Below, one piece after another: positions 31,047-58,887 of a DNA stretch of 62,233 nucleotides. The notes below the pieces were generated by a model. It had not been told where the DNA came from, did no database searches, and worked only from the letters and a program-made list of their open reading frames with translations. Position 1 is the stretch's first letter. Each line of letters begins with the position of its first letter. The position numbers and the translations under genes are program-made. The stretch is from Chitinophaga pinensis (GTDB lineage Bacteria; Bacteroidota; Bacteroidia; 2-12-FULL-35-15), in contig CAMCYR010000013.1 of the NCBI GenBank assembly GCA_945885475.1, forward strand, positions 1 to 62,233, given 5' to 3'.

Positions 31047-31547
31047 ATGGTTTTTAGCAGCGCGCTCTTTCTCCTTTACTTCTTCCCGATTTTCTTTCTG
31101 GCTTACTTTTCTATTCCTACAAATTTTAAAAATGCATTTCTATTATTCGCTAGCATTCTGTTTTTTGCTTGGGGGGCTCCAATTTTTACTGGTTTTGAAC
31201 TTTTGTCAATTATTGTTGACTATTTTCTTGTTCAACAAATTTTCAATGCTACTGGAAAAAGAAGAAAAGTGTTTTTGTTTCTTTCTGTTTTCTTCAACTT
31301 GGCGCTAATCGCTTATTTCAAGTACGCAAACTTTTTTGTTGAAAATGTGAATGGTCTTGTTTCTAACTGGGGAGCAAACGGAATTGTTGGCTGGAAAGAT
31401 GTTATTCTTCCTATCGGTATTTCGTTTTTTACTTTTAAAAAAATCAGTTATACCGTGGATGTTTATCGGAACACTCATGCACCCTTCAAAAGTATTGTAA
31501 ACTATTCTTTATTCACACTTTTGTTTCCTGAAAAATTCTGTTTCTGA
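31047..31547 (+). pseudogene. Truncated MBOAT O-acyltransferase (N-terminal third)
   Basis: 166 codons. The reading starts like an AlgI/DltB-type MBOAT protein (MVFSSALFLLYFFPIFFLAY) and continues through DVILPIGISFFTFKKISYTV and NYSLFTLLFPE (to about residue 162), where intact relatives go on with the conserved pocket and catalytic His. Here four unrelated codons and a stop follow. Normal length is about 450-500 residues, so two thirds are missing. The downstream frame belongs to another gene, so this is a deletion or fusion, not a simple frameshift. Confidence 0.85.
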
Positions 31548-36619: not shown

Positions 36620-38188
36620 TTATTGCTTCCGCTTATACAATTCCATTTTTTTATTTTCTGAAAGATAGATCAATTCGAATCGTTTTTTTAACTCTAGTTC
36701 TATCAATGCTGTGCACGAGTCTTTGCTGTCTCCATTAAAACAAAAGCGACTCAAATAATCTATTTTGTGATGAGTCGACTGTTCATAATTATCGATGTCG
36801 ATACATGGTGGGTTTCGGTTTCCGTATTTCGGCATCAGATCATATACCTGTTCGCCCTGTTTCCAGATCAGCGGAAAATGTGGTTTTGTGGGTTCATAAT
36901 TATCCAAACTAACAATGTTTTTTTGTGTGGCCATATAACAGGCGTGGTTGATCTGTATCCAATTATTAGAATAATTTAGCGGCAGCAAAACCGTATTGTC
37001 TTCCATAAACTCTTCTGCCCTGACAAGCGTGGCTGCATCATCACTTAAAATCTTCGTCTGCTCATTATGATACGAAACAAAAAACACGTGTGTCGTCAGG
37101 AGCACCGCAACAGGAAGAAACAATTGATTCGGAGGAAGACCTTTTGCCGCGATCAAAACAATGAGCATCAAAAAAAAGAATAAGGCCCAACGGATAGAGA
37201 TAAAGCCTCCTGAGGCAATCCAATCGGGGAATACAAAAAACAATAACAAAACGATCAACGAAGATACCAGCCAATAGGGGCGGAAGTGCAAAGCCTGTTT
37301 TCTTTTTCTGAAAAAATCAATGATAACCATTAAAAGCAAAACACATAGCGCATATAAAATAATATGCGCAAAGCCGACTTCGCTATCATAATTGAGTGTA
37401 ATAACCGGACTCAAATCAATGATTGTTTGAAGCAGCCTATCGCTGCTTAAATATGTAGGAGGAGAATGCTTAAAGGTGCTGTTAGAAACAACAAACAACA
37501 CCGACAGAATAACACCAGGCAGCACGATCAATGTTGGAAAAAGAAACTGCTTAAACGCTTGTCTGATCTTTCGGAAATAAAGAGCATATTGTATTTCGTT
37601 CACGAAAATAATTATCCCCAATAACATAAAATTAAAAATATGCGATAAGTAAACGATCGTTGAAAGGCTGGCCAACAAAAAGATTTTTCCGGTACTTAAT
37701 TGATCTCTGTTTTTGATCCACAAGCCCAAGGTCCAAAACAGAACAGGTATTCCTACACAAAAATTAAAAAAACCGATGCGGAAAGTAAAGGAATAAACAA
37801 ACGAAAAAATAAGATAAGACGAGAGCCTTGCTGACCTTTCGTCTGCCACAAGTCGCTTCACTAAAAAACGAAAAGAGAAAGGAAGCGACAGCACATAAAA
37901 AAGAAGGATGCTTTTTTCAACCAGACTTACAGGAAGAAACAAGCCAAACAGAGCGAACCAAAGGTGGTCAAGAAAATTTGAATTGAGGTGTTTGTTAAAA
38001 TCAAAAAAGTCGCGAGGAAAATCGTTATTTAAAAACCATAAATGTTTTAAAAGATTCGCATTGTGAAGGTGTGCAGGACCATCTACGGTTGGGAAATACG
38101 TATTAAAAAGAACAGGAACGGCTGTAAAAAAAACAAAAAGTGCGAAGAAATAACGTTCGTACTTCCACAAAAATTCAATCCTTTTCAT
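36620..38188 (-). CDS. Polytopic membrane protein, GT-C-like
   Basis: 522 residues with about ten membrane helices. The first periplasmic loop has YFPTVDGPAHLHNANLLKHL, where the Asp of DGPAHLHN could serve as the GT-C catalytic acid; this loop is seen in uncharacterised Bacteroidota membrane proteins. The C-terminal part (about 385-522) is soluble. It is the first gene of a four-gene minus-strand operon reading into two further GT-C proteins and a GT2 enzyme. Glycosyltransferase activity is inferred from fold and context only. Confidence 0.7.
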   Translation of the reverse strand: MKRIEFLWKYERYFFALFVFFTAVPVLFNTYFPTVDGPAHLHNANLLKHLWFLNNDFPRDFFDFNKHLNSNFLDHLWFALFGLFLPVSLVEKSILLFYVLSLPFSFRFLVKRLVADERSARLSSYLIFSFVYSFTFRIGFFNFCVGIPVLFWTLGLWIKNRDQLSTGKIFLLASLSTIVYLSHIFNFMLLGIIIFVNEIQYALYFRKIRQAFKQFLFPTLIVLPGVILSVLFVVSNSTFKHSPPTYLSSDRLLQTIIDLSPVITLNYDSEVGFAHIILYALCVLLLMVIIDFFRKRKQALHFRPYWLVSSLIVLLLFFVFPDWIASGGFISIRWALFFFLMLIVLIAAKGLPPNQLFLPVAVLLTTHVFFVSYHNEQTKILSDDAATLVRAEEFMEDNTVLLPLNYSNNWIQINHACYMATQKNIVSLDNYEPTKPHFPLIWKQGEQVYDLMPKYGNRNPPCIDIDNYEQSTHHKIDYLSRFCFNGDSKDSCTALIELELKKRFELIYLSENKKMELYKRKQ

Positions 38189-43182: not shown

Positions 43183-44574
43183 CTATGGATTCTGTGGCGG
43201 GTTATTCGGGTTTGTTGTATTTGTCGGGTTGCTATTGTTTGGTCGCGGGCGATTGTTGTTTGGACGCGGACGGTTATTGTTCGGTCTGTTGGGGTTGTTT
43301 GGATTATTCGGCCTGTTCGGGGTGTTCGGGGCATTTGCCGGATTTGGTTTATTCGGATTTGGCCCACCAACATTTTTGTTTGCGTTTGGATTAGCTGCTC
43401 CTGCCGGTTTGTTCGGGTTAGGCGGACCGTTTCTTTTTTTGCTTTTGCTTTTCGGTTTTTTACTCTTATCGAATCGCGTTAAACTATCTTGTCCAACAAC
43501 ATTTTCATAATCCGGTTTCTTCTCAATCACCTTCGGAGTCATCTTAATTAAAAGATCATCCGGCTTCACACTGTTTTTGTTCATCTCCATAATTTCCTTC
43601 ACACGAGCGACAGGAAGCGGAATAAAATTATCGGGTTCATGTGTATAGGAAAAGAACATGGTGCGTCTGAAAATGTCTGTTTTTTGATGAAACGCTCTTC
43701 CTCTTTCCGTTTCTAATTTCACATTGTTTACTTCCGGAAAATCATGAAGCGCATCCATGTAACTGTCTAATTCAAAGTTTAAGCAACACTTCAACTTCCC
43801 ACATTGTCCGGCAAGTTTAAGCGGGTTCAACGATAGTTGCTGGTAGCGTGCTGCACTGGTAGAAACAGATCTAAAATCCGTTAACCACGTTGAACAGCAC
43901 AATTCGCGACCGCAAGAACCAATTGCACCCAATCGCCCCGCCTCTTGTCTTGCTCCGATTTGTCGCATTTCAATGCGCACCTTAAATTCGTCTGCAAGCA
44001 CTTTTATAAGTTCACGGAAATCAACACGGTCTTCTGCCGTATAATAAAATACAGCTTTTGTTCTGTCGCCCTGATATTCAACATCACTGATCTTCATTTG
44101 TAAGTTCAGTTTTACTGCACAGGTTCTTGCGCGATACATCGTTTCTTGTTCCAGCCCTTGGGCCTCTTGCCACTTTTCTATATCAACCTGTTTGGCTTTT
44201 CGGTAAACTTTTTTTATTTCTTCTGAATCCGATTTTACATTTCGTTTCTTCATCTGCAAACGAACAAGTTCACCGGAAATCGAAATCACCCCGATATCGT
44301 GTCCGCCCGTTGCCTCAACAGCAACAACATCTCCGACATTGAGCTGAAGTGCATTTACATTTCTGTAAAACCCTTTTCTGCTGTTCTTGAAACGAATTTC
44401 AACAATATCGCAAACAGCTTGTCCGCTCGGCAACTCCATGTTTGCCAACCAGTCGAAAACATTTAATTTATTACAACCTCCGGCACCACACGATCCGTTA
44501 TTTTTACAGCCACCCGGCAAACCATTGCTTGCTGTGCTGCATCCTCTGCCTGTTGAACATCCGCTACATCCCAT
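43183..44574 (-). CDS. ricT: PSP1-domain protein RicT (YaaT-like) with Asn/Pro-rich tail
   Basis: 463 residues. The N-terminus is Cys-rich (MGCSGCSTGRGCSTASNG, eight Cys within the first about 35), unlike Bacillus RicT. The PSP1 domain (about 50-280) holds AVKLNLQMKISDVEYQGDRT, GSCGRELCCSTWL and QCGKLKCCLNFE with the Fe-S-ligand cysteines. From about residue 375 the chain becomes basic and then repeats N, P, R and T (RPNNNRPRPNN). RicT partners in Bacillus act on RNase Y specificity; the role here is inferred. It lies between holB and gldH. Confidence 0.88.
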   Translation of the reverse strand: MGCSGCSTGRGCSTASNGLPGGCKNNGSCGAGGCNKLNVFDWLANMELPSGQAVCDIVEIRFKNSRKGFYRNVNALQLNVGDVVAVEATGGHDIGVISISGELVRLQMKKRNVKSDSEEIKKVYRKAKQVDIEKWQEAQGLEQETMYRARTCAVKLNLQMKISDVEYQGDRTKAVFYYTAEDRVDFRELIKVLADEFKVRIEMRQIGARQEAGRLGAIGSCGRELCCSTWLTDFRSVSTSAARYQQLSLNPLKLAGQCGKLKCCLNFELDSYMDALHDFPEVNNVKLETERGRAFHQKTDIFRRTMFFSYTHEPDNFIPLPVARVKEIMEMNKNSVKPDDLLIKMTPKVIEKKPDYENVVGQDSLTRFDKSKKPKSKSKKRNGPPNPNKPAGAANPNANKNVGGPNPNKPNPANAPNTPNRPNNPNNPNRPNNNRPRPNNNRPRPNNSNPTNTTNPNNPPQNP

Positions 44575-50946: not shown

Positions 50947-51384
50947 TTAGCAACCTTCTGATATTTTTGCTACCCTGTCGGTATGTCTACCCCCTTCAAA
51001 TGCTTTAGAATAAAACGCATCAATACACTTTTTTGCTTCTTCTTCAGAAACGTAGCGTGCTGGCAAGGTTAATATGTTCGCATCATTGTGCTGTCTGGCA
51101 AGTGCAGCAATTTCTGCATTCCAACAAAGTGCTGAACGGATACCTTTATGTTTATTGGCGGTCATATTGATTCCATTTCCACTTCCACACATTAGTAAAC
51201 CAAAATCAAAATCTTTATTTTCAAGCGCACCGGCAACTTGGTGGGCAAAATCAGGATAATCTGCGCGCTCTTCGGAATAACAGCCAAAATCTTTTATTTC
51301 ATACCCTTTTGATATCAAATAAAGCTTTAGCTTTTCTTTTAATTGAAATGCTGCGTGGTCACAACCAATCGCTATTTTTATCAT
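50947..51384 (-). CDS. rpiB: Ribose-5-phosphate isomerase B
   Basis: 145 residues. It interconverts ribulose 5-phosphate and ribose 5-phosphate. The RpiB/LacA text IAIGCDHAAFQLKEKL at the start, ADYPDFAHQVA, the active-site loop LLMCGSGNGINMTANKH and the later GGRHTDRV are present. It is the last minus-strand gene before the gene-free region at 51385. Confidence 0.96.
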   Translation of the reverse strand: MIKIAIGCDHAAFQLKEKLKLYLISKGYEIKDFGCYSEERADYPDFAHQVAGALENKDFDFGLLMCGSGNGINMTANKHKGIRSALCWNAEIAALARQHNDANILTLPARYVSEEEAKKCIDAFYSKAFEGGRHTDRVAKISEGC

Positions 51385-51934
51385 TTTACTTTATTTTAAC
51401 ATGAATTAGACTGTTCCTCTTTTTGATTTGTGCGTGTTTTTTTGATATTCACAACGTAATTAACAGCTTTTTTGGCTTATTAACACGCTTGTAAAGTTGA
51501 AAAATAAAGTGCTGATAACGAGACTTCTAGTTTTTAACTTATCAACACGGTTTCTGTTGATAACAAAAGACTTTGTTATAAATGTGTAGAACATTTTTCT
51601 TGCTTTGTTAAAATACATTATCCGTTACATTAATTTTTGAATAAGCTATCATTATAACTTACCAACTTAACACAATTAATCAACAATTTCGTAACACAAA
51701 TTAACGTATTTTTGTCGAGAAGTTATTAGACAACAAGCATACTAACATCCTGTTAATAAAGTGAAACAAATCTACTAATCAAGATGTTATAGTCTAATAA
51801 CTTATTAAGTAATGTTTGTTGTATGTTAGAACTCATAAATGCAACGGTTTTATTCTTTTTTTTTACATTGTACTAACAGACCAATAACAACAATAAATTT
51901 TTAAATATTTTAAATAAAAATATATATTATTATT
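51385..51934. other. Candidate replication origin (oriC) region
   Basis: 550 AT-rich bases with no coding sense. DnaA-box-like 9-mers (TTATYAACA) lie at 51477-51485 (plus, TTATTAACA), 51539-51547 (plus, TTATCAACA), 51555-51563 (minus, TTATCAACA) and 51751-51759 (minus, TTATTAACA). The middle two face each other 7 bases apart. The last 50 bases before nadA are almost only A and T, as in an unwinding element. Genes run away from this region on both sides, and mnmG (gidA), a classical oriC neighbour, is close. A cluster of parS-like sites lies 3-4 kb to the right. Inference from combined features. Confidence 0.55.
51707..51714 (+). promoter_or_regulatory. Possible -7 box upstream of nadA
   Basis: TATTTTTG matches TAnnTTTG, about 220 bases ahead of nadA, inside the candidate origin. 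There is no clear -33 partner. Confidence 0.3.
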
Positions 51935-52921
51935 ATGGGTGGAAAAAATTTGTCAAAAGGGTTTTTGGATGTGCCGATTGATTATTCGCTAGATTTGTTT
52001 TCAGAAATAAATAAACTGAAAAAAGAAAAAAATGCAATCATCCTTGCCCATTATTACCAAGATGCCGACATCCAAGATATTGCGGACTACATCGGCGATA
52101 GCCTCGGACTCTCGCAGGAAGCTGCGAAAACGAGTGCAGATATCATTGTTTTTGCAGGAGTTCATTTTATGGCGGAAACAGCAAAAATTCTTTCTCCTAA
52201 AAAAAAAGTTTTACTACCTGATCTCAATGCAGGTTGTTCATTAGCAGATTCTTGTCCAGCTGAAAAGTTTGCTGAATTCAAAAATGCACATCCGCATCAT
52301 TTGGTAATTTCTTATATAAATTGTTCTGCAGAATTGAAAACTCTGACTGATATTGTTTGTACTTCTACGAATGCAGTGCAAATAGTTGAAAGTTTACGCA
52401 AAGATCAAAAAATAATATTCGCTCCTGATAAAAATTTGGGTGCTTATATTAACAAACTTACCGGGAGAAACATGGTGCTTTGGAATGGTGCCTGCATGGT
52501 TCATGAGATATTTTCTTTGGAGAAAATTATAAAATTAAAGAATCAACATCCTGGAGCTTTATTATTGGCACACCCTGAATGCGAAGCAAATGTGCTTGAT
52601 GTTGCTGATTATATTGGGAGCACAACAGGTATTTTAACATATGCTACGAAATCGGATGCTAAAGAATTTATTGTCGCTACAGAAGCTGGTATTATTCATC
52701 AAATGCAAAAAGCTAATCCTAATAAGTCATTTATACCCGCTCCACCGAATAATTCTTGTGCATGCAACGATTGTCCACACATGAAATTAAACACCTTGGA
52801 AAAGCTTTATAATTGCCTTAAATTCGAAGAGGCGGAAATAGTATTAGCAAATGAACTGATCGAAAATGCGAAAAAACCAATTTTAAGAATGCTGGAGTTA
52901 TCTGCGCAATTTGGCTTATAG
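51935..52921 (+). CDS. nadA: Quinolinate synthase A
   Basis: 328 residues. It joins iminoaspartate and dihydroxyacetone phosphate to quinolinate, using a 4Fe-4S cluster. The three expected cysteine regions are [19 protein letters not shown] and [14 protein letters not shown]; further text [20 protein letters not shown] is typical. The first gene to the right of the candidate origin, on the leading strand. nadB and nadC are not in this window. Confidence 0.96.
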
Positions 52922-53034: not shown

Positions 53035-54939
53035 ATGTTTAAAGAATACGATGTAATTGTGGTTGGTGCCGGTCATGCTGGTTGTGAAGCTGCTGCTGCT
53101 GCTGCTAATATGGGATCTTCTACCCTATTGATTACCATGAATATGCAGACAATTGCCCAAATGAGTTGCAACCCAGCAATGGGAGGAATCGCCAAAGGTC
53201 AAATTGTTCGTGAAATAGATGCTATGGGCGGCTATTCTGGTATTGTTACCGACAGGACTGCTGTGCAATTTAGAATGTTAAACAGATCAAAGGGTCCTGC
53301 GATGTGGAGTCCCAGAGCTCAGAGTGATAGATGGAAGTTTGCTGAAGAATGGAGATTGATGTTAGAGGCAACACCTAACCTTGATTTTTGGCAGGACATG
53401 GTAAAATCTTTAATTATAGAAGATAATAAAGTTTGTGGCGTGATTACGGGTATGGATATTGAAGTTCGTTCAAAAGCGGTTGTTCTGACAAATGGAACTT
53501 TTTTGAATGGATTAATACACCTTGGTGAAAAGCAATATGGTGGCGGTCGTGCAGGTGAAAAATCTTCTACCGGGATTACTGAGCAGTTAGTTTCTTTGGG
53601 ATTTGAAGCAGGTAGAATGAAGACAGGAACGCCTCCCCGGATTGATGGACGATCTCTTGATTATTCTAAAATGGAAGTGCAGCACGGTGACGAAAATCCG
53701 AATAAATTTTCTTACTTAGATGTTGATCAGTTTGGTTTTAAAGTAGAACGTAAGGACGCTTTTAAAAATGGTCCAGAAGGGCAAATTCCTTGTTTTGTTA
53801 CTTATACAAACGAAGATGTACACGAAATATTAAGAACAGGTTTTGAAAAATCTCCTATGTTTTCTGGTAGGATTCAAGGTTTAGGTCCAAGATATTGTCC
53901 GAGTATAGAAGACAAAATTACCCGTTTTGCGGAAAGGGAAAGACATCAGATATTCGTCGAACCTGAAGGATGGAATACAGTCGAAATCTATGTAAACGGG
54001 TTTTCGACCTCTCTTCCAGAAGATGTTCAGTTTAGGGCATTGAGAAAAATTCCTGGTTTTGAAAACGCTAAAATGTTTCGTCCAGGTTATGCAATTGAAT
54101 ATGATTATTTTCCTCCTCAACAATTGAATCTCACGCTTGAAACCAAGTTGGTTGGCAATCTTTATTTTGCTGGGCAAATTAATGGTACGACGGGATATGA
54201 AGAAGCCGCTTGTCAGGGATTAATGGCCGGAATAAATGCGCATCTAAAAGTAAAGGGCAAGGAACCATTAATTCTTCAAAGATCTGAAGCATATATTGGA
54301 GTTTTGATTGATGATTTAGTAACGAAAGGAACGGATGAGCCCTACCGCATGTTTACGTCGCGTGCAGAATATCGAATATTATTGCGCCAAGACAATGCAG
54401 ACATGCGATTAACACCTAAGTCGTTTGAAATAGGCTTAGCTAAAAAAGAGCGTTTGGATAGAGTTAATATTAAGCAAAAGAACACGCAGGAAATTATATC
54501 TTATTTCAAGAAGGAGAGTATCGACCCAGCTGAAATGAACCCGGTATTAGAGACCATTAGTTCTGCTCCCATTTCGCAGAAAGTTAAAATGTTTGGAGTG
54601 TTAACGAGACCAACAATTACCTTATTAGACTTTGCCATTGCTTCAGCAAAGGTTAAGGAATTTATTTCCAATTACGATTTAGAAAGTATTGAACAAGCAG
54701 AGATTTTAATGAAGTATGAAGGTTATATTTCCAGGGAGCACGACTTAGCTGATAAACAGTCAAGATTAGAAGACTTGATTTTACACGATGATTTTGACTA
54801 TAAAAGACTAACTTCTTTATCAGCCGAAGCAAGAGAAAAGTTTTCAAAGATTAAACCAAGAACGATCGGGCAAGCATCTCGTATTTCCGGAGTTACACCA
54901 TCCGATATTTCTGTCTTGATGGTTTATTTGGGCCGATAG
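53035..54939 (+). CDS. mnmG: tRNA uridine-5-carboxymethylaminomethyl modification enzyme MnmG (GidA)
   Basis: 634 residues. With MnmE it modifies U34 of several tRNAs. The FAD site is [18 protein letters not shown] (7-24). The family text [34 protein letters not shown] and the C-terminal helical domain with [14 protein letters not shown] are all present, so it is full length. The stop codon overlaps the first parS-like site (54938-54953). mnmG is often close to oriC in bacteria. Confidence 0.97.
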
Positions 54940-55030: not shown

Positions 55031-55915
55031 ATGGAAAAATTAGAGAATTGTCCCGTTTGTAATTCTATTAGAAATAAGCCGTTTCTGACTTGTAAGGATC
55101 ACACCGTTTCACGTGAAACATTCTCGATTGTTGCGTGTGAATCTTGTGGTTTTAAATTTACCAATCCCCGACCCAACGACTCGGATATAGGGAAATATTA
55201 CAAGTCTGAAGAGTATGTTTCCCACTCAAACACCAAGAAAGGTTTTATTAATTCCACCTACCAGTCGGTTCGTAAATACACCTTATTAAAAAAATTACAA
55301 CTCATTTCTTCGTATTATAAGACAGGTAAGATTCTAGATATTGGATGCGGAACGGGTGAGTTTTTGAATACCTGCAAAAATGCAAAATGGGACACATTTG
55401 GAATTGAACCCGATGATGATGCTCGGAATATGGCAATCAATACGTACGGATTAACCGTGCAACCGGAGGCAAGTTTAAGAAGCTTTTCTGATGAGAGTTT
55501 TGATGTTATTTCAATGTGGCATGTACTGGAGCATGTTCCTAAATTAAACGAACGCGTAGAAGAATTAAAGCGCTTACTTAAACCGAATGGTATTATTATC
55601 ATTGCTGTTCCAAACTGTAATTCCTTGGATGCAAAAATATACAAAGAGAATTGGGCAGCTTTCGATGTTCCTCGTCATCTTTATCATTTTACCCCAAGGG
55701 ATATGGAGGCCCTTTTCAGCAAATACAACATGAAGGTTTTTCAAATCTTACCGATGATCTTCGATGCTTTTTATGTTTCAATGCTTAGTGAAAAGATAAA
55801 ATCCGGTAAAACGAATATAATACGTTCCACGTGGAACGGACTTCGTTCAAACCTTTCTGCGATTAAGTTCGCAAACACCTCTTCTAGCCAAATATACCTA
55901 ATTCGCAAAAAATAA
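55031..55915 (+). CDS. Class I SAM-dependent methyltransferase with N-terminal zinc-ribbon-like region
   Basis: 294 residues from the ATG at 55031; a GTG at 55013 lies in parS-like site 2 and is less likely. The N-terminal part has CPVC and CESC pairs (residues about 6-40, NCPVCNS and CESCGFKFTNPRP), likely binding zinc. The methyltransferase domain has ILDIGCGTGEFLN (motif I) and DVISMWHVLEHVP (motif III-like). The target is unknown; the type is common after mnmG in this phylum as far as I recall. Two parS-like sites lie inside the coding sequence, one of them encoding TVSRET. Confidence 0.85.
   Translation: MEKLENCPVCNSIRNKPFLTCKDHTVSRETFSIVACESCGFKFTNPRPNDSDIGKYYKSEEYVSHSNTKKGFINSTYQSVRKYTLLKKLQLISSYYKTGKILDIGCGTGEFLNTCKNAKWDTFGIEPDDDARNMAINTYGLTVQPEASLRSFSDESFDVISMWHVLEHVPKLNERVEELKRLLKPNGIIIIAVPNCNSLDAKIYKENWAAFDVPRHLYHFTPRDMEALFSKYNMKVFQILPMIFDAFYVSMLSEKIKSGKTNIIRSTWNGLRSNLSAIKFANTSSSQIYLIRKK
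55105..55120. promoter_or_regulatory. parS-like site 3 (in coding sequence)
   Basis: CGTTTCACGTGAAACA matches TGTTTCACGTGAAACA, the classical Bacillus-type parS, in 15 of 16 positions. It encodes part of the motif T-V-S-R-E-T of the methyltransferase. Confidence 0.8.
55823..55838. promoter_or_regulatory. parS-like site 4 (in coding sequence)
   Basis: CGTTCCACGTGGAACG is a perfect 16-bp palindrome and matches the parS consensus except its two end bases. Confidence 0.75.
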
Positions 55916-56127: not shown

Positions 56128-56143
56128 TGTTTCACGTGGAACA
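56128..56143. promoter_or_regulatory. parS-like site 5
   Basis: TGTTTCACGTGGAACA matches TGTTNCACGTGNAACA at all 16 positions. It lies in the intergenic region. Confidence 0.85.
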
Positions 56144-57891: not shown

Positions 57892-58887
57892 TTAGGTGAT
57901 CAACAGCTTTTTAATTTGTTTTGCTGCAGGCTTTTCAAAAGCGAAAGTGGAAATGGCAGCAATCAACATTGTTGTTGTTAGTGCTATTAAAAAGCAGAGC
58001 GGGCTGGTTCCCAACAGCGATTTCCAGATCTCTATTATTGGCCGGTGAATCAAATAAAATGCAAAAGAAATTTCTCCCAGAAATAATAAGGGCCTTGTTT
58101 TTAAGAATCTGAAATTGTGTGGGTTTGTAATAATGAAAAGAAAGGTTGAAATAACTAAAATCAATTTTGTAGGATCGAACCGTGCTGCTAGATGATACAC
58201 AAAAAATTTTCTGAACAAGGGGATTATTGTGAGTGTTAAAATAAAAACACTAACGGAAAAATAAGCAGGTGTTTTTTTTACACGTTCAAATACCCACTTA
58301 TTGTTGACCAAATAAGCTATCGCCGTTCCAATAAAAAAGGTAATTGCAAACAGCCAAATGGTGTGAGCGCGACCGCTTTCAAAATAAAATTTTACTCCCA
58401 ATGCACCCATTGAAAGCGGTATTAACAAAAGAACCAAAAAGTTTTTCGATACTTTTTGATACAGCAACCAAATAAAAATAAATGTAAAATAAAATTGTAC
58501 TTCTACCGGTATCGACCACAACTCGTAGGGGGAAGAAATAAAAAATAGAGCAAATAGAAGCTTTCGTTCGTTTTGAAAATTATAGTGAAACTCGGGGTAG
58601 ATAAACGAAGATATTACATACGACAACAAGAGCACAAGTACAAAAGCGGGGAAAATTCGGGATGCTCTTGATACGATATAATTATAAACGTTCTTCGTGG
58701 TAAACGCCTTATTTAAATAGTGCTGAGAAAGCAAAAAGCCGCTGAGCACAAAGAGGATCAAAAGGGCTATTTGGCCGTATTGTTTTTCAAGGTAAGCAGA
58801 AAGGAATCCGGCTTTAGCCGCATGTGCAAGAAAGATGATCAGCGCCGCGATTCCTCTTAGTCCGTTTAGTTCTAAAACTTTACCCAT
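57892..58887 (-). CDS. Acyltransferase 3 (OafA-like) membrane protein
   Basis: 331 residues with about ten membrane helices. The family start is ELNGLRGIAALIIFLAHAAK with the active His (about residue 22). A second signature is the segment SIPVEVQFYFTFIFIWLL. Such proteins add acetyl or other acyl groups to surface sugars or peptidoglycan; acceptor unknown. No soluble extra domain. Confidence 0.88.
   Translation of the reverse strand: MGKVLELNGLRGIAALIIFLAHAAKAGFLSAYLEKQYGQIALLILFVLSGFLLSQHYLNKAFTTKNVYNYIVSRASRIFPAFVLVLLLSYVISSFIYPEFHYNFQNERKLLFALFFISSPYELWSIPVEVQFYFTFIFIWLLYQKVSKNFLVLLLIPLSMGALGVKFYFESGRAHTIWLFAITFFIGTAIAYLVNNKWVFERVKKTPAYFSVSVFILTLTIIPLFRKFFVYHLAARFDPTKLILVISTFLFIITNPHNFRFLKTRPLLFLGEISFAFYLIHRPIIEIWKSLLGTSPLCFLIALTTTMLIAAISTFAFEKPAAKQIKKLLIT

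Follow-up and report, generated by a model that had tools for sequence, protein, structure and literature searches.

DnaA-dependent chromosomal origins of the DoriC/Ori-Finder type, as in Bacillus subtilis and Escherichia coli, have a cluster of DnaA boxes with an inverted pair and an AT-rich unwinding side, and lie at a GC-skew minimum; mnmG (gidA) is nearby in E. coli and parS is nearby in B. subtilis. The parS site of ParABS systems lies near the origin and is a palindrome of 16 bp similar to TGTTTCACGTGAAACA. The basal unwinding system (BUS) consists of a DnaA box, a spacer and at least three 3'-NAN-5' trios (PMC8287927). In B. subtilis some trios start with A, and Asn187 of DnaA contacts the central adenine of the trio (PMC10721633). 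The stretch of 62,233 nt analysed here (the window) contains an intergenic gap that is predicted from its sequence to be, very probably, a DnaA-dependent origin with a deviant trio array. That this gap is the chromosomal origin, unlinked to dnaA and working through the DnaA, unwinding and ParB steps proposed below, is predicted with high confidence. The sequence-only reading had put a candidate chromosomal origin at this place, and the skew, the parS sites, the box spacing and the congeners without nadA support it. An origin distant from dnaA is of a known kind; an array without a central adenine at the trio position is a variant.

The gap was described in the earlier reading as an AT-rich stretch of 550 bp with divergent transcription on both sides, mnmG nearby and an A/T tract before nadA, and each of these points holds. 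The A+T content is 75%, the ORF positions place rpiB on the minus and nadA on the plus strand, and the tract is a run of pure A/T that lies beside the boxes, as the AT-rich unwinding element does in oriC (Table 1). The four TTATYAACA 9-mers are present as claimed, two copies each of TTATTAACA and TTATCAACA, with the middle two facing each other 7 bases apart; they form an intergenic cluster with conserved positions, as expected of oriC. Each of the gap boxes has one or two mismatches to TTATCCACA, and the locus is unlike origins of the B. subtilis/E. coli type in having the consensus TTATYAACA in place of TTATCCACA and in being flanked by rpiB and nadA.

Table 1. Features of the predicted origin region (positions in the window)
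Feature	Position	Strand	Basis or remark
rpiB, left flank of the predicted origin	50947..51384	-	PF02502
Predicted oriC (AT-rich gap with divergent rpiB and nadA on either side)	51385..51934	.	composition, genes, skew, conserved boxes
Conserved half-box-like block ATTAACAGCTTT	51459..51470	+	94% identity to the window across congeners
DnaA-box-like 9-mer 1, TTATTAACA	51477..51485	+	conservation percentile 96.9
DnaA-box-like 9-mer 2, TTATCAACA, 62 bp after box 1	51539..51547	+	conservation percentile 98.9
DnaA-box-like 9-mer 3, TTATCAACA, facing box 2	51555..51563	-	conservation percentile 96.5
Weaker box-like site TACTAACA, facing box 4	51740..51747	+	sequence
DnaA-box-like 9-mer 4, TTATTAACA, 196 bp after box 3	51751..51759	-	conservation percentile 94.5
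Weak DnaA-box-like site GTACTAACA beside the array	51870..51878	+	two mismatches to TTATTAACA
Array CAA TAA CAA CAA TAA, candidate deviant DnaA-trios	51882..51896	+	21/21 genus loci
45-bp pure A/T run, candidate DNA unwinding element	51892..51936	.	longest A/T run in the window
nadA, right flank, replaceable	51935..52921	+	PF02445; absent here in some congeners
mnmG (gidA), origin-region gene	53035..54939	+	PF01134
parS-like site CGTTTCACGTGAAACA	55105..55120	.	one mismatch; same position in relatives
parS-like site TGTTTCACGTGGAACA	56128..56143	.	one mismatch; same place in relatives

The pattern TTATYAACA occurs 146 times in the 3.06-Mb draft genome, which is below the count of the reversed control pattern, and a Poisson model gives a chance expectation of about 6e-5 clusters of four in 283 bp. 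Two such 9-mers that face each other within 30 bp are found at two places in the 3.06 Mb, the gap and one other. An array of perfect TTATCCACA boxes at another locus had been named beforehand as evidence that would tell against the gap; genome-wide, 25 perfect sites are scattered without a tight cluster, and they are fewer than those of the reversed control pattern.

The cumulative GC-skew minimum of the 62,233-nt window is at 51780, inside the gap; the genome itself is a draft of 84 contigs, and the position refers to the window and not to the whole chromosome. Third-codon skew on the shown strand is -0.103 in plus-strand genes and -0.117 in minus-strand genes to the left of the gap, and +0.068 and +0.229, respectively, to the right. 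Since the sign changes in both orientations, the skew switch at the gap is not due to gene orientation alone. The base counts quoted earlier for two segments were exact (37 G and 17 C at 58081-58260; 39 G and 38 C at 37081-37260). A minimum near nadA was also obtained for congener G014 (981,078 in the 280 kb scanned, nadA at 980,672) and for the complete chromosome of Chitinophaga sp. E66 (5,614,431 in the 400 kb scanned, nadA at 5,617,386). Of 20 samples taken round the E66 chromosome, most of those from 5.66 Mb on to 2.3 Mb have a positive skew, and negative values prevail between 2.6 and 5.56 Mb. GC skew is weak across the clade: congener G015 has only a local minimum at the nadA locus and a deeper one 100 kb off, and in G002 the nadA locus lies within a broad valley.

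A parS cluster had been reported 3-4 kb from the gap; its position was right, and the cluster amounts to two sites with one mismatch each, close to the 16-bp palindrome. No other site in the genome comes within one mismatch of TGTTTCACGTGAAACA. In E66, G014 and G015 (280-400 kb scanned in each) parS-like sites were found only 3.0-4.5 kb from nadA, and the sampled contig of G002 has three near nadA and one weak match 203 kb away.

The absence of dnaA from the window was borne out: the single DnaA gene is on another contig (C24) at 39.6 kb. An origin at dnaA was considered and rejected, as this contig has one TTATYAACA, no box cluster and no clear skew minimum. In E66 dnaA is at 108 kb, about 778 kb from the nadA locus. 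The predicted origin is thus not adjacent to dnaA, unlike origins of the B. subtilis/E. coli type, being on a separate contig here and about 0.78 Mb away in the complete relative.

Some bacterial DnaA-box clusters are not origins, and the skew places the origin only to within several kb. On these grounds the cluster might be a DnaA-titrating or regulatory locus of the datA/DARS kind, lying near a true origin at another place, such as dnaA or the vicinity of mnmG. Such a reading is very improbable, as the dnaA locus has no box cluster, no other TTATYAACA cluster was present among the first 100 of the 146 sites, and the A/T run and the array at the trio position lie directly beside a weak box-like site, the arrangement published for the basal unwinding system.

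Where the rpiB-nadA gap of a congener is complete, most of the boxes are found at unchanged distances, chiefly +62, +16 and +196. In the genus alignment, identity to the window is 94% over the four boxes and 64% over the whole gap; the conservation of the boxes was not reached by any of 20,000 random draws of four 9-mers. The most conserved stretch in the gap is ACTAACAGACCAATAACAACAA (51872-51893), which is followed by the pure A/T run. The elements are also kept where nadA is missing. Congener G027, without nadA at this place, has four boxes (+64, +16, +196) and also retains the CAA array and the A/T run; the gene that follows is unrelated. Four others (G009, G010, G019 and G020) have box clusters beside rpiB, and in each of them the array and A/T run are likewise present, followed by genes other than nadA. 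In G013 the boxes are kept and the contig ends before the position of the array. A purely regulatory role, in which the conserved elements would serve the divergent rpiB and nadA as a promoter, leader or other control region and not as an origin, is still less probable: the gap does lie between two divergent genes, and its most conserved block sits just upstream of the nadA start, but the elements are not a nadA promoter because they are kept in congeners without nadA (boxes at similar spacing, and in these five also the array and A/T run, before an unrelated gene), the skew minimum and the parS sites would be left unexplained, and Rfam gives no known RNA element above threshold (the best match, psRNA6, scores 13.8 bits against 60 and was rejected). 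The gap next to rpiB in G017 has no box cluster, and the origin of this congener may therefore have moved or decayed. Many copies of a short repeat like AGTACAGTATAACCTGACTAT were seen in this G017 gap (L284).

The unwinding side of the predicted origin has the order of the basal unwinding system: a box-like site, a 3-nt spacer, at least four trinucleotides and an A/T run (PMC8287927, PMC10721633). In the window these are GTACTAACA, the spacer GAC and the (C/T)AA repeats. Where the described system has a DnaA box at most 16 bp from the trios, GTACTAACA is 3 bp away and is a weak box-like site, with two mismatches to the local consensus and four to TTATCCACA. It is placed as the TATTCACA and TATCCACA boxes of Chitinophagaceae, and the most conserved 12-mer of the gap starts within it, at 51872. 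The complement of the array reads 3'-GTT ATT GTT GTT ATT-5' in the window. At all 21 genus loci the complementary units are 3'-GTT-5' (90 units) or 3'-ATT-5' (12 units); the search pattern fixed the AA, and the actual finding is at least four such units at every locus (21/21). Unlike the described system, which has at least three 3'-NAN-5' trios opposite the box strand, the genus has no central adenine in the equivalent strand, 3'-(G/A)TT-5'. The variation between G and A at the first position resembles the trios of B. subtilis (PMC10721633).

Near-canonical trios are present in a genome of a neighbouring family (G035), with CTATTATTACTACTATA and its complement 3'-GAT AAT AAT GAT GAT AT-5'. 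The trios are taken here to lie on the strand complementary to the box, as presumably in B. subtilis, and G035 supports this assignment. Just upstream of nadA in Chitinophagaceae, a DnaA box and a short spacer are followed by NTA repeats, which agrees with the basal unwinding system as published (PMC8287927). Examples of the module are TATTCACACCCCTAATAGTAGTGGG from Chitinophaga sp. YR573, with a nearly identical one in E66, and ATTCACAGCCGTAATAATAATAGG from Niastella, and the near-canonical trios at the nadA locus of Chitinophaga read CTAATAGTAGTG. Of 79 relatives, 27 have a box, a spacer and (NTA)3 upstream of nadA; the rate in random windows is 1.5%. A similar box with a ATTATTATTA array was seen in the Bacteroidales symbiont L073.

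In the mechanism proposed for the predicted origin, DnaA would bind the TTATYAACA boxes and the weaker box beside the array. From the weaker box a DnaA filament would extend over the trinucleotides and melt the adjoining 45-bp A/T run, which would permit helicase loading, with two forks leaving divergently. The new origins would then be segregated by ParB bound at the parS sites, 3-4 kb from the gap. The CAA array is a concrete natural case in which the ability of DnaA to use a trio lacking the central adenine can be tested.

At DnaA position 187, in B. subtilis numbering, the sampled Chitinophagaceae have Asn and the source genus has Gln, with Ser in G021; several neighbours have His, Thr or Ala. 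The numbering is based on what we take to be the B. subtilis DnaA sequence. Its residues 183, 187, 196, 202 and 228 match those named in PMC10721633. In domain IV the source genus has HATVLHA where Chitinophagaceae have HTTVIHS, a difference that parallels their boxes (TTATYAACA and TTATCCACA, respectively). It is conceivable, though somewhat doubtful, that the trio of the genus diverged to 3'-(G/A)TT-5' together with the change of DnaA from Asn187 to Gln (Ser in one genome). Strict covariation between residue 187 and trio type was not supported, with Gln and canonical-looking trios in G048 and His and canonical trios in G035. Because the link is not strict (G048), a joint shift of initiator and motif is offered only as a hypothesis; if true, the genus would be an example from nature of an initiator that changed jointly with the single-strand motif it recognises. 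Such a joint change was suspected, not demonstrated, in PMC8287927.

The predicted origin also resembles those predicted upstream of nadA in Chitinophagaceae and Sphingobacteriaceae, which have boxes, and mnmG and parS within several kb. These differ in having, in many cases, perfect TTATCCACA boxes and in lacking rpiB as a neighbour, and those of Chitinophagaceae differ further from the genus in having NTA repeats as trios and Asn at DnaA position 187. Upstream DnaA boxes, often perfect TTATCCACA, were observed at many nadA loci of the two families (L006, L008, L012-L016, L021, L037, L063 and others), many with parS near mnmG. This distribution suggests that linkage of the origin to nadA arose early in the phylum. 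A report of an origin position upstream of nadA in Bacteroidota was not found in the part of the literature covered, which does not extend to the DoriC entries. The region upstream of nadA is a usable origin landmark in Chitinophagaceae, Sphingobacteriaceae and the source lineage. Origin callers that rely on dnaA adjacency and on TTATCCACA could miss the origin predicted in the gap, and a missed origin would affect replication-rate estimates and the interpretation of gene dosage for a large group of uncultured Bacteroidia.

Two further ORFs of the window were noted. By eye, the 166-aa ORF at 31047-31547 resembles the first part of a membrane O-acyltransferase of much greater length; it is probably a broken gene, with no continuation in the ORF list. 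The ORF at 43183-44574 is Cys-rich and has a long low-complexity tail of Asn, Pro and Arg (PNNPNRPNNNRPRP).
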